Part shown: piece after piece, positions 20,098-51,104 of the stretch | Layout: each line of letters begins with the position of its first letter | Numbering within the stretch: position 1 is the stretch's first letter | From: Gammaproteobacteria bacterium | GTDB lineage: Bacteria; Pseudomonadota; Gammaproteobacteria; Ga0077536 | Length of the DNA stretch: 51,219 nt | Direction: 5' to 3' | Assembly (NCBI GenBank): GCA_016191285.1 | Contig: JACPPA010000050.1 | Location: 1 to 51,219, forward strand | Program-made: the position numbers and the translations under genes | The notes under the pieces: generated by a model | Told to the model about the DNA's origin: nothing | Databases searched by the model: none | Seen by the model: only the letters and a program-made list of their open reading frames with translations

Positions 20098-20296
20098 CCA
20101 CATGCAACCCATGCGACGCCGCGACGTTGTCGCCGGACACCTGCCGCGTGCGTGGACTCATCGCTGCACCGAGAGCCCAATTCAACACGCGGCAGTTATC
20201 CAACGTTTGGTGATGCTTCGATGCGCCTGCCACCGGAGCGTTTACAAAGTAGACTGCAAACACGGTGCCAACCTCGCACGACGGTCAATCTAGGCG

Positions 20297-46491: not shown

Positions 46492-47088
46492 CTATTGGGC
46501 ATCCAACTCCATCATATCCGCCACCGTATCAATATCAAGTAATACACCAGGCGTTTCGACTTCAATCGTCACCAGCGTTGACGCGGATTCAACCACCGCA
46601 CGCGCGCCCTGATCGCCAGTCAAGGCGCACAGCGCCTCACGATACGCAGGCGCGAAGAGCACCGGATGGCCCCGACGCCCGCGGTAGACGGGGGCGATAA
46701 TCGCAGTCCCGTCGGCGATGGCAAACGACGTCGCGAGCTGCTCGAACGTTGCCGGCTCCACGTCCGGCATGTCGCCGAGGCAAATGAAGATCCCATCAAG
46801 CGCAGTAGTCAGTGCCGCGACGCCGGCAGCGATCGAGCTGCCCATTCCCGCCGCCGGATTTGGATTAGCGGTCAGCGCAAACGGGTGTCGCGCGACCAGC
46901 GCGCGCTTCTCATCATCAACGCACCCCACAACCACGACACACTCCGCGAGATGCGCTCGCTCGAGATTTGTCAGCGCCCAGTACAGCAACGGTTGTCCAC
47001 GGTAGGGTTGCAGCAATTTATCGCCACGCGTAAATCGCGACGATAACCCAGCAGCGAGGAGCACTGCGCCGAAGCGTTTAAGTCTCAC
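46492..47088 (-). CDS. mocA: MocA-like molybdenum cofactor nucleotidyltransferase
   Basis: A 198-residue MobA/MocA-type nucleotidyltransferase. The GTP/CTP loop is VLLAAGLSSRFTRGDKLLQPYRGQPLL, with ANPNPAAGMGSSIAAGV and FICLGDMPDVEP following; the C-terminus is LDIDTVADM. MocA makes molybdopterin cytosine dinucleotide for xanthine dehydrogenase-type enzymes; the pairing with xdhC supports this. The ATG overlaps xdhC stop by 4 bp. Confidence 0.85.
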   Translation of the reverse strand: MRLKRFGAVLLAAGLSSRFTRGDKLLQPYRGQPLLYWALTNLERAHLAECVVVVGCVDDEKRALVARHPFALTANPNPAAGMGSSIAAGVAALTTALDGIFICLGDMPDVEPATFEQLATSFAIADGTAIIAPVYRGRRGHPVLFAPAYREALCALTGDQGARAVVESASTLVTIEVETPGVLLDIDTVADMMELDAQ

Positions 47089-48011
47089 GTGGTGGCGTAC
47101 TGCGTCTGAATGATTTCGGCCACGATGGCAACGGCGATTTCCGGTGGATTCTTGCCACCCAGCTTCAAGCCAACCGGTGCGCGAAGGCGTGCCAGCGCGG
47201 CGTCGGTAACGCCCAGACGACGCAAATTAACCACGCGCTCCTCGTGCGTACGTTTACTCCCCAACGCGCCGACATAAAAGCACTCGGAGGCCAGGGCCTG
47301 CTTGAGGATGAGCGGTTCCCACTCGTGCTCATGAAACAACGACACAAACGCCGTCCAGCGATCGAACTCAGCGAATCGAAACGCTGCGGGAGCTGCTAAG
47401 TATTCAGCGCGTACTGCGTGTGCCACCGTGGCTTCGAGCGTCTCGACTTCGGAGGACATCGCGATCACTTCAAAATCGGCGGCGCTCGCCAAGCGGGCGA
47501 GAATGGGGACCGTCGGGCCCTTGCCGACGGCGACCAGCCGCGGCGTGGGCGGGTAGTGACGAATATACGCGCCGGGGTCAGCGGCCGGCGTAATCGCCGC
47601 GATAACGCGACCTGCCGCGGGATTGATGCTCAAGGTCGCGGGTTGCCGCAGCACCCGGAAGTCAAGCAGGCTAGCGAGGGCCGCGTCCGTGAAATTGACA
47701 TCGAAATACACGTCAATTCCCGAGCCGCAGGGCAGCCGGATATCGATATAGGGCGAGCCCGCGCCGTAACGCACCGTACCGCTCTTTCCGCGCGCGATGC
47801 GCGCCTGCGCTTCGGCGATGATCGCCGCTTCGGCGCAACCACCGGTGATATTGCCGACGGCAGCGCCGGTTTCCGCGATCGCCATCTGGCTACCGAGGGG
47901 TCGCGGGGCGGAGCCGTCGGCTGCGATCAGCGTCACAAGTGCAGTCTTTAGGCCTAACGCGCGCCATTGGCGCAAATTCGGCAGGACACTCGGAACATAA
48001 ATTGCCGACAT
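47085..48011 (-). CDS. xdhC: XdhC/CoxI-family molybdoenzyme maturation factor
   Basis: A 308-residue XdhC-family protein that delivers sulfurated Mo cofactor to xanthine dehydrogenase-type apoenzymes. The N-terminal part has LVTLIAADGSAPRPLGSQMAI and GNITGGCAEAAI (with the conserved Cys); the C-terminal Rossmann domain has CFYVGALGSKRTHEERVVNLRR and PVGLKLGGKNPPEIAVAIVAE. The Mo enzyme itself is not in the window. First gene of a two-gene operon with mocA. Confidence 0.88.
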   Translation of the reverse strand: MSAIYVPSVLPNLRQWRALGLKTALVTLIAADGSAPRPLGSQMAIAETGAAVGNITGGCAEAAIIAEAQARIARGKSGTVRYGAGSPYIDIRLPCGSGIDVYFDVNFTDAALASLLDFRVLRQPATLSINPAAGRVIAAITPAADPGAYIRHYPPTPRLVAVGKGPTVPILARLASAADFEVIAMSSEVETLEATVAHAVRAEYLAAPAAFRFAEFDRWTAFVSLFHEHEWEPLILKQALASECFYVGALGSKRTHEERVVNLRRLGVTDAALARLRAPVGLKLGGKNPPEIAVAIVAEIIQTQYATT

Positions 48012-48247
48012 TTAAATCAGACCCCTGAATTGCTTGGCCCCGTGGGGCTCGATGATATCGCCATGCCGCGTGTATCGCATCGTCACGCATTCTGAACGGA
48101 CTAAGACTGCTGGCAACAATGGATACAACGTCAATTTGACGCACGCCGCGCCGGACACCTGGCAAAAAGCGTCAGGACCTTGACGTGTAAACGGAATGCA
48201 GCACTGGCCGTTCACGGAGACGGTTGAAATAATCTCGAGCTAAAGCT

Positions 48248-48263
48248 TGGCACACAACCTGCG
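48248..48263 (+). promoter_or_regulatory. Sigma54-type promoter (-24/-12)
   Basis: TTGGCACACAACCTGCG: GG at 48249-48250 and GC at 48261-48262 have the exact sigma54 spacing, and TGGCAC at -26 to -21 is a full match to the -24 box. The -12 box is CTGC (consensus TTGC). The predicted start (+1) is 48274, which is the first base of the leader RNA stem. Confidence 0.6.
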
Positions 48264-48273
48264 ATATAGAGTC

Positions 48274-48401
48274 GTGATGCCATGCGATCGGGATAGCCGA
48301 GTAGGTAACCACCCGCAAAGGCGGCGAATCGACTCAGGGGCGGAAGGGGATTGAGGTTCCGCGCGATGTGGCCAAGTCACGGCATCACCCGGGTTGAACC
48401 C
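48274..48401 (+). ncRNA. Candidate structured leader RNA of the GGDEF-EAL gene
   Basis: A closing 8-bp stem (GTGATGCC at 48274-48281 with GGCATCAC at 48381-48388) encloses hairpins GAGT/ACTC with inner CCGC-AAAG-GCGG (48313-48324) and a perfect GCGGAA/TTCCGC stem (48340-48345 and 48357-48362). A small GGG/CCC hairpin follows at 48391-48401, 27 bases before the ATG. It does not fit the c-di-GMP class I or II consensus as I know them. The rest of the 417-bp spacer (48012-48247) shows nothing recognised. Confidence 0.45.
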
Positions 48402-48428
48402 TGAATAACAACGCTAGAGCGGCCCACT

Positions 48429-51104
48429 ATGAATCTGTCTGATTCCCCTCCGCCGGCATCAACGTCCGCGGTTGGGCGTGCCGCGATGCCTGGCGGAACG
48501 CTCGAAGTGCGCCTCGCGGGCGCCCTCGTACTCTGGCTTGGGGTATGCGCCGCGCGGGCGTTCGTGCCGTGGGGCGGGCCACTAACGGAGAAGGTGCTCG
48601 GCCTATTTTACGACTTGCCGGTGGGCCCGATCCTGGCGTTCTTATGTTGGCGCGCCAGTTGCGCGTCCGCCTCGAATCCACGTGTCGCACGAGGCTGGCG
48701 CACGCTGGCCGTCGCTTACCTTATTTACTGGATTGGCAATTGCATCTGGAATGTTTACGAGGGCATTCTGGAAATTAAGCCATTTCCGTCATTGGCAGAT
48801 GCGTTCTTTTTGATTTTCTATCCGCTGGCCATTTATGGTTTGAGCTCTCTCACCGAACGTCTGCCGAATAGCCGCGACCGCTTGAAGTTCAGCTTGGACT
48901 GCACTACCGCGGTGGTGAGTTCGCTTGGGATTCTGTGGTACTTCGCGCTTCGACATTCGACCGTGGATGACGAACACGGAATTCTCGGCATTATTGTCAG
49001 TGCCTCGTATCCAATCGCCGATATCATGCTCTTGATTGCCGTGGTATCGGCGCTGCTTAAACGCCAAACCCTTGGCTTCGGTCCACCGCTGATTATGCTA
49101 GCTGGCAGTTATCTCGCGATGATGGCGGGCGATCTGACGTTTATGGAACCCGCGGCTGAGGGTGAGTACGCAAGCGGTGGAATAACCGATGTCTTTTTCC
49201 AACTCTCCTTCGCGCTGGTCGCGATTGCCGCCGCGTTGCAAATACGTGCGATGTCACTACGAACCGAGCGCGCCGCCATGCCCGCGGCCTATGCCTTTCA
49301 TTTATTTCCGTACCTCACGGTTGCCGCGGTATTCGCCTTGCAGCTCTGGGTCGGGCGCGAAGCCGCGCTGCGACCGGCCGGAATTCTCTCCTTCGTCGCC
49401 ATGGTCACCACCGTCATCGTCGTGCTGCGTCAGATCCTGGCGACGCGTGAAAATGCCGAGCTATCGGCCGCACAAGCCGCGCAAGCCACCGAGGTGCGCT
49501 ACAAATCGTTGGTTCGTAACTCATCCGATATCGTGCTCGTCACCGACGAAAAGGGTTGCGTGTCCTTCGTTACGCCGTCCGTTGAACGTCAACTCGGTCT
49601 CGGCACCGACGAACTACTTGGAACTCCGCTTACCGACCTTACGCACCCGAATGATCTATACGAAGTACGCCACTTCTGTCGCGATTTGAGTGAAGATCCG
49701 AGTCTAACGGGGCCTGTTGAGTGGCGTTTACGAACGCCCGACGGCGGGTATTTCTATGTTGAAGTCGTCGGCTCAAACCTGTTCGCCGATCCGAATGTGC
49801 GTGGCTTGGTCTTAAATGCGCGCGACATCACCGAGCGCAAACGCCTCGAAGACGAACTGAAACATCTCGCGTTTACCGACACCTTGACCTTGCTCGCCAA
49901 TCGCAATCTGTTCAACGAACAGCTGGCGATCGCGCTCAATCGTGGCGAACCGTATCCAACGCTGATCTTCGTCGACCTCGACAACTTCAAAAAAGTCAAC
50001 GATACCCTGGGGCACGAGGCCGGCGATAAACTGCTTGCCGTGGCGGCACGCCGCCTGATTCGAACCACCCGCAGCGGCGACACGGTCGCGCGGCTTGGCG
50101 GTGATGAATTTGCGCTGCTCATCACGGGTGACACCTCCCAACTTTATGTCGAGGCGTTGGCCGCACGCTTGGTCGAAGCGCTATCCACGGCCTATGAAAT
50201 CAACGGCCGTCAACTAACGCTATCCGCCAGCATCGGGATCGCAAAAGGTGATCGAGGCATGTCGTCCCAAGAACTCATGCGTAACGCGGATCTTGCGATG
50301 TATCGCGCTAAAGCGCGCGGCAAACGTTGCTATGAAGTTTACGAACCGGCGATGTATGCCAGCATGCGCCAGTCGGTCGATCTTGAAATGGAATTAACCG
50401 CGGGCCTCGAGCGTGGCGAGTTCGTCCCCTACTTTCAGCCTATTGTCGATTTGCGCACTTCGGAAATCGTCGGCGTGGAAGCGCTCGCGCGCTGGCATCA
50501 CCCCGAGCGTGGGGTGCTATCCCCGGCGATTTTCATTCAAATCGCCGAAGACAGCGGGTTGATTGACCGGCTCGGCCGCTCGATGCTGATTCAAACCTGT
50601 TGGCACGCGTCCGAATGGCTGAAGACCGTTAAACCGGAGCGTCTGCAGCATATCGCCATTAACATTTCCGGACGCCAAATCGAACATGTCGACCTCGCGG
50701 CGGAAGTCGCCGAAGCACTAAAAACCTATCAACTGCCACCTCAAATCCTGGTGCTCGAAATCACCGAGTCGGTGTTGATGGAAAACGTGGGCGCCGCTAT
50801 CGAACAGCTCAACCGCCTCAAGGAATTGGGGGTACGTATCGCACTCGATGACTTTGGCACCGGCTATTCGTCGTTGAGCCACGTCCATCGATTCCCCATC
50901 GATATCTTGAAGATTGACCGCTCCTTCGTGGACGCTTTGAAAATTTCCGACTCGTCCGTACTGGTCCGCGCGATGATTAGTTTGGCGCACGCCCTGGAGC
51001 TCGATGTAGTCGCGGAAGGAATTGAGAAGATCGAACAACTCACCCACTTGCAGCGGCTAAACTGCCGGCACGGTCAGGGCCTGATCGATCCCCACGAAAT
51101 TTAA
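48429..51104 (+). CDS. Membrane PAS-GGDEF-EAL cyclic di-GMP enzyme
   Basis: An 891-residue bifunctional-type protein. Residues ~28-345 hold about eight hydrophobic helices (a MASE-like sensor), ~358-475 a PAS domain (YKSLVRNSSDIVLVTDEKG, NARDITERKRLEDEL), ~480-645 a GGDEF domain with intact GGDEF (557-561) and ~655-880 an EAL domain with intact EAL (684-686), DDFGTGYSSLSH and VVAEGIE. Both cyclase and phosphodiesterase residues look intact, so direction is not predicted. The end (GQG then LIDPHEI) departs from the family's GQGxLFxxP; see the shifted frame downstream. It has a sigma54-type promoter. Confidence 0.9.
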   Translation: MNLSDSPPPASTSAVGRAAMPGGTLEVRLAGALVLWLGVCAARAFVPWGGPLTEKVLGLFYDLPVGPILAFLCWRASCASASNPRVARGWRTLAVAYLIYWIGNCIWNVYEGILEIKPFPSLADAFFLIFYPLAIYGLSSLTERLPNSRDRLKFSLDCTTAVVSSLGILWYFALRHSTVDDEHGILGIIVSASYPIADIMLLIAVVSALLKRQTLGFGPPLIMLAGSYLAMMAGDLTFMEPAAEGEYASGGITDVFFQLSFALVAIAAALQIRAMSLRTERAAMPAAYAFHLFPYLTVAAVFALQLWVGREAALRPAGILSFVAMVTTVIVVLRQILATRENAELSAAQAAQATEVRYKSLVRNSSDIVLVTDEKGCVSFVTPSVERQLGLGTDELLGTPLTDLTHPNDLYEVRHFCRDLSEDPSLTGPVEWRLRTPDGGYFYVEVVGSNLFADPNVRGLVLNARDITERKRLEDELKHLAFTDTLTLLANRNLFNEQLAIALNRGEPYPTLIFVDLDNFKKVNDTLGHEAGDKLLAVAARRLIRTTRSGDTVARLGGDEFALLITGDTSQLYVEALAARLVEALSTAYEINGRQLTLSASIGIAKGDRGMSSQELMRNADLAMYRAKARGKRCYEVYEPAMYASMRQSVDLEMELTAGLERGEFVPYFQPIVDLRTSEIVGVEALARWHHPERGVLSPAIFIQIAEDSGLIDRLGRSMLIQTCWHASEWLKTVKPERLQHIAINISGRQIEHVDLAAEVAEALKTYQLPPQILVLEITESVLMENVGAAIEQLNRLKELGVRIALDDFGTGYSSLSHVHRFPIDILKIDRSFVDALKISDSSVLVRAMISLAHALELDVVAEGIEKIEQLTHLQRLNCRHGQGLIDPHEI

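Follow-up and report, generated by a model that had tools for sequence, protein, structure and literature searches.

The window analysed here is the whole of one contig (C52), a stretch of 51,219 nucleotides from a gammaproteobacterial genome of 5.1 Mb in 60 contigs. On the plus strand it carries a gene for an 891-residue PAS-GGDEF-EAL protein (48429-51104). Pfam assigns EAL (1.3e-69), GGDEF (1.9e-41) and PAS (2.1e-12) domains to the product, and the GGDEF, RxxD and EAL signatures are all found. These domains sit behind hydrophobic N-terminal segments, as judged by hydropathy. An xdhC-like gene (47085-48011, minus strand) is divergent from this c-di-GMP gene, and the two have a common upstream region, an intergenic gap of 417 bp (48012-48428). 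The XdhC-like gene is followed on the minus strand by a gene for a MobA-like nucleotidyltransferase, and the pair covers 46492-48011.

The gap contains TGGCACACAACCTGC at 48248-48262, ahead of the PAS-GGDEF-EAL gene, and the spacing between the GG and GC elements of this site is canonical. From ortholog conservation and pattern counts, given below, we assign it to a putative sigma54 (-24/-12) promoter box, TTGGCACACAACCTGCGAT (48247-48265, plus strand). The sigma54 consensus is TGGCACG-N4-TTGC, in which TTGC is the -12 element. The window box matches 9 of the 11 specified positions at exact spacing; its -12 element is CTGC, and the first T of TTGC is absent. The predicted transcription start is 48274 on the plus strand, placed by spacing only at 12 bases past the C of the -12 element. 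For sigma54 promoters the start base is known only to within a base or two. The original prediction had described a TGGCAC-N6-TGC match with exact -24/-12 spacing and a +1 at 48274, and its letters and coordinates are correct. On letters alone the site is statistically weak and does not go beyond chance. The window has three occurrences of TGGCAC-N5..7-TGC where 1.84 would be expected, and there are two copies of the exact TGGCAC-N6-TGC in the 51 kb. The second exact copy is TGGCACCGTGTTTGC (20256-20270, minus strand), which has the better -12 element (TTGC).

Orthologs were sought with the N-terminal 357 residues of the window protein in 36 genomes of the order. Four of these genomes, the window's own included, carry one. 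G003 belongs to the same genus and its protein is 57-58% identical to that of the window; G030 and G033 belong to another genus (50-53%). All three relatives are metagenome-assembled genomes. A single-sequence protein search of named genomes found no ortholog, and the same genomes queried with the four-row alignment gave three loci, corresponding to G003, G030, and G033. A class-wide sample of 369 genomes contained one more family with an ortholog (G374), and among the four genomes of its order was a second ortholog-bearing genome (G401).

The upstream region of each ortholog was scanned for its best score against the 11 positions of the sigma54 consensus. The best site scores 9/11 in each of the window (TGGCACACAACCTGC), G033 (TGGCATGTAACGTGC), and G030 (TGGCATGCAAAGTGC), and the -12 element of these boxes departs from TTGC, reading CTGC or GTGC. 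A sigma54-type box is kept ahead of three of the four orthologs found in the 36 genomes of the order, the window gene counted. G003, of the same genus, has no such box in the 400 bases upstream of its gene; nothing there scores above 8/11, and the best site falls within the upstream reading frame. With G003 lacking the box, the predicted promoter is not universal among the orthologs. The promoter segments of the window, G033, and G030 were aligned pairwise, and in all three pairs the score exceeded that of every one of 500 shuffles. Outside the order, G374 and G401 carry an identical weaker site, TGGTCCATCATTTGC (8/11), located 46 bases (G374) and 61 bases (G401) ahead of the first aligned residue. 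These are suggestive only, because the whole upstream regions of the two are similar and other sites tie with them in score.

A 19-base pattern, TTGGCAYNNNANNTGCGAT, was written from the boxes of the window, G030, and G033. It occurs four times in the 36 genomes of the order, and three of these occurrences are matches by construction; the reversed pattern does not occur. The fourth match, which was not chosen beforehand, is in G026 (L093, 1501-1519), a genome of the window's own family, ahead of a flgB-like gene (Pfam Flg_bb_rod, 22.2 bits against a cut-off of 20.7) and then a flagellin gene. A flgA-like gene lies on the other, divergent side of this box. A flgB-like gene followed directly by flagellin is a seemingly unusual gene order. 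As a control for spacing, a similar pattern with one extra spacer base gave no match in any of the 36 genomes. When one mismatch was tolerated, a similar 20-base pattern occurred three times in the window's genome and its reversed control four times; this looser pattern is not specific. The window box thus resembles sigma54-dependent flagellar flgB promoters in that the identical 19-base pattern stands ahead of the flgB-like gene and flagellin of G026, and it differs from them in that the gene it precedes encodes a c-di-GMP enzyme instead of a flagellar component.

The box could in principle be a chance match to sigma54, with the gene transcribed from a sigma70 promoter. The near-expectation count in the window, the deviating -12 element and the same-genus ortholog without a box would all fit such an account. 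However, two orthologs of a different genus, with leaders unrelated to that of the window, keep the box, and the pattern recurs ahead of flgB. We regard transcription from a sigma70 promoter as improbable. The comparison gives a good probability that the sigma54 promoter ahead of the PAS-GGDEF-EAL gene is real, and the earlier claim of such a promoter is supported, as the same box stands ahead of two orthologs.

From the predicted +1, the 5' untranslated leader would be 155 nt long (48274-48428, plus strand). Its first eight bases, GTGATGCC (48274-48281), are exactly complementary to GGCATCAC (48381-48388). This 8-bp inverted repeat reaches 11 bases if one mismatch is accepted. Short hairpins lie inside the stem at 48312-48324, at 48340-48362 (6-bp arms, GCGGAA/TTCCGC), and at 48368-48380. 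The stem opening at the predicted +1 is confirmed letter for letter, and the further hairpins reported within it are present as three short ones.

How surprising this register is can be judged from shuffled leaders. Of 2000 dinucleotide shuffles of the leader, 258 (13%) contain a Watson-Crick stem of at least 8 bp, and just 9 contain one that begins at position 1 or 2. Among 7295 overlapping pieces of the window of the same length as the leader, 1887 have a stem of at least 8 bp and 75 have one at the start. The agreement of stem and +1 is a coincidence at the 0.5-1% level, picked out after 51 kb had been read. On these counts (9/2000 shuffles, 75/7295 pieces), the statement that agreement to the base is unlikely by chance was not confirmed. 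The folding energy of 48274-48428 has z = +1.07 relative to shuffles, and five choices of ends gave z values from -0.76 to +0.94.

We then compared the leader with known RNA families. At gathering score, Rfam has no match in the window, neither to a c-di-GMP riboswitch nor to any other cis-regulatory RNA. A permissive search of 48150-48480 (E <= 10) gave only hya (18.7 bits, cut-off 56.8) and MDR-NUDIX (18.2 bits, cut-off 54.9). Both matches were rejected as chance. The leader has in common with the GEMM-I and GEMM-II riboswitches and with hya RNA its location in a 5' leader. In contrast to the first two, GEMM is absent among the two Rfam matches listed to E 10, and in contrast to hya RNA the leader reaches 18.7 of the 56.8 bits required.

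Neither did the search for relatives of the leader itself yield a second copy. BLAST of 48240-48440 against 96 genomes, including the window's own, returned the self-match only. A covariance model was built from the single leader and its minimum-energy structure; its self-score is 149.8 bits. In 58 genomes at E <= 1 the model found itself and four weak matches in other genomes (E 0.17, 0.39, 0.75, and 0.77; these E-values are rough, and this search used stricter filters). The best non-self match scored 22.5 bits (E 0.17). At the orthologous leaders the model found nothing, and weak matches at loci L006 (E 0.59) and L020 (E 2.1) fall outside the leaders.

The orthologous leaders were also aligned directly. 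From the predicted +1 they are 117 and 129 nt long in the two other-genus orthologs, against 155 nt in the window. The alignment score of the window leader was reached by 499 of 500 shuffles with G033 and by 447 of 500 with G030, and both scores are below the shuffle mean. G033 and G030 themselves have a stretch in common towards the 3' ends of their leaders, and there only 1 of 500 shuffles reaches the score. The paired regions of the window leader are not kept in the orthologous leaders, and there is no homologous leader to align for covariation. In this family, conservation thus extends to the putative promoter and not to the leader.

These results bear on the suggestion of a structured cis-regulatory RNA with a narrow distribution, confined to this species or to unsampled genomes, in which the leader would act as a riboswitch or by binding a protein to tune the c-di-GMP enzyme. 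The perfect 8-bp closing stem that begins on the predicted +1, the rarity of that register in the shuffles and the three inner hairpins would be in keeping with it. Against it, the fold is no more stable than shuffles, the best Rfam scores stay far under their cut-offs, the covariance model finds only its four weak matches, and the two orthologous leaders are unrelated in sequence and different in length. Such an RNA is quite improbable. The undescribed cis-regulatory RNA proposed originally does not pass the refutation test set for it: the homology search of the leader returned only itself in 96 genomes, the orthologous leaders are unrelated and of differing lengths, the pairing is not conserved, and no convincing second copy was found. 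A functional RNA element in the leader is not supported, and no entry as a riboswitch candidate is warranted. A leader RNA restricted to the species would be invisible to comparative tests, because one genome with the leader is in the sample. There is a very slim chance that a structured RNA of this kind starts exactly at the sigma54 start and controls the membrane PAS-GGDEF-EAL enzyme. If true, it would be a layer of RNA control on top of that by sigma54 and FleQ.

The sequence fits an inverted repeat in DNA equally well, for example one that lies past the promoter and serves for protein binding or looping. FleQ is able to bind enhancers downstream of the RpoN site, and FleQ enhancer sites reportedly lie atypically in that position (title of Jyot 2002, as referenced in PMC6120874). 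The arms of the repeat, however, are about 100 bases apart and look unlike the published FleQ motif, and the leader is not conserved; this reading is highly improbable. Most likely, the 8-bp stem at the +1 is chance or a lineage-specific feature without a conserved regulatory role. Of the coincidence of two signals, the promoter half is supported and the leader RNA half is not.

The region is very probably the promoter and ordinary leader of a sigma54-dependent gene for a membrane-bound PAS-GGDEF-EAL enzyme, with a flagellar activator as a candidate regulator. RNA polymerase with sigma54 (RpoN) would bind the -24/-12 box at 48247-48265, and an AAA+ enhancer-binding protein would be needed to open it. 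This activator may be a flagellar one, either FleQ or an FleR-like activator encoded nearby, perhaps bound at two CGTCA/TGACG dyads upstream. The c-di-GMP enzyme would thereby be made together with the flagellar programme. The promoter suggests that the enzyme belongs to the sigma54 regulon, probably that of flagella, in a gammaproteobacterial family.

The proteins that such a scheme requires are encoded. All eight genomes searched encode the RpoN DNA-binding domain (PF04552), as do four of the 14 controls. The sigma54-activator domain (PF00158) was found in six of six genomes, with 15 matches, three of them weak, in the window's genome. The three weak ones probably belong to other AAA+ proteins, because the family also matches in all 14 control genomes. 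The window's genome has a close FleQ homolog, for which the best match is FleQ 8p53 (480 bits) and in which the C-terminal helix-turn-helix region is similar. Its gene is followed by that for a PAS-histidine kinase, and a second activator domain lies 2.9 kb on, an order which we take to be fleQ-fleS-fleR.

The two dyads are candidate activator sites. One is CGTCA-N3-TGACG, CGTCAATTTGACG (48129-48141, with the GTCA/TGAC core at 48130-48140), and the other is CGTCA-N6-TGACG, CGTCAGGACCTTGACG (48170-48185, with GTCA-N6-TGAC at 48171-48184). They are centred about 139 and 97 bp upstream of the predicted +1, and the roughly 42 bp between the centres is close to four turns of the helix. The second shares its GTCA-N6-TGAC layout with the published FleQ motif GTCaNTAAAtTGAC (PMC8125075). 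For P. fluorescens F113 at least, this motif has been judged unreliable (PMC6120874). Among 5000 shuffles of the 417-bp intergenic region, 5 held two or more GTCA-N0..8-TGAC dyads. The fairer comparison, as the motif was chosen afterwards, is with any repeated 5+5 dyad, and such dyads arose in 72 of 3000 shuffles. Across the window's genome CGTCA-N6-TGACG shows no clear enrichment (8 against 5 for the reversed control); the corresponding counts in five other genomes are 5/8, 15/10, 19/5, 14/6, and 11/10. No GTCA-N1..8-TGAC dyad stands ahead of the orthologs in G003, G030, G374, and G401, the four with enough upstream sequence; G033 was left out of this check, its contig ending about 60 bases before the box. 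The dyads could serve the divergent xdhC-like gene instead.

A c-di-GMP gene driven by sigma54 is of a kind already known, because there are precedents with FleQ and sigma54 in Pseudomonas putida. One study reports that three GGDEF/EAL promoters of this species (PP1144, PP3711, and morA) are raised by FleQ and are partly sigma54-dependent, and that PflgB is strictly sigma54-dependent (PMC5026340). The window gene resembles these three as a c-di-GMP turnover gene behind a sigma54-linked promoter, its activator and its sigma54 dependence being predicted. Among the predicted FleQ-regulated genes of two pseudomonads listed in one table is PP_5263, a GGDEF/EAL gene (PMC6120874, Table 1). The likeness in this case is that of a c-di-GMP turnover gene as a target of FleQ, which for the window gene is one candidate regulator.

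The C-terminus of the PAS-GGDEF-EAL protein (51050-51104 of the window) reads GQGLIDPHEI. In three orthologs the corresponding sequence is GQGYYFG(R/K)PES, with about 40 further residues. The gene in the window may be shortened at its 3' end.
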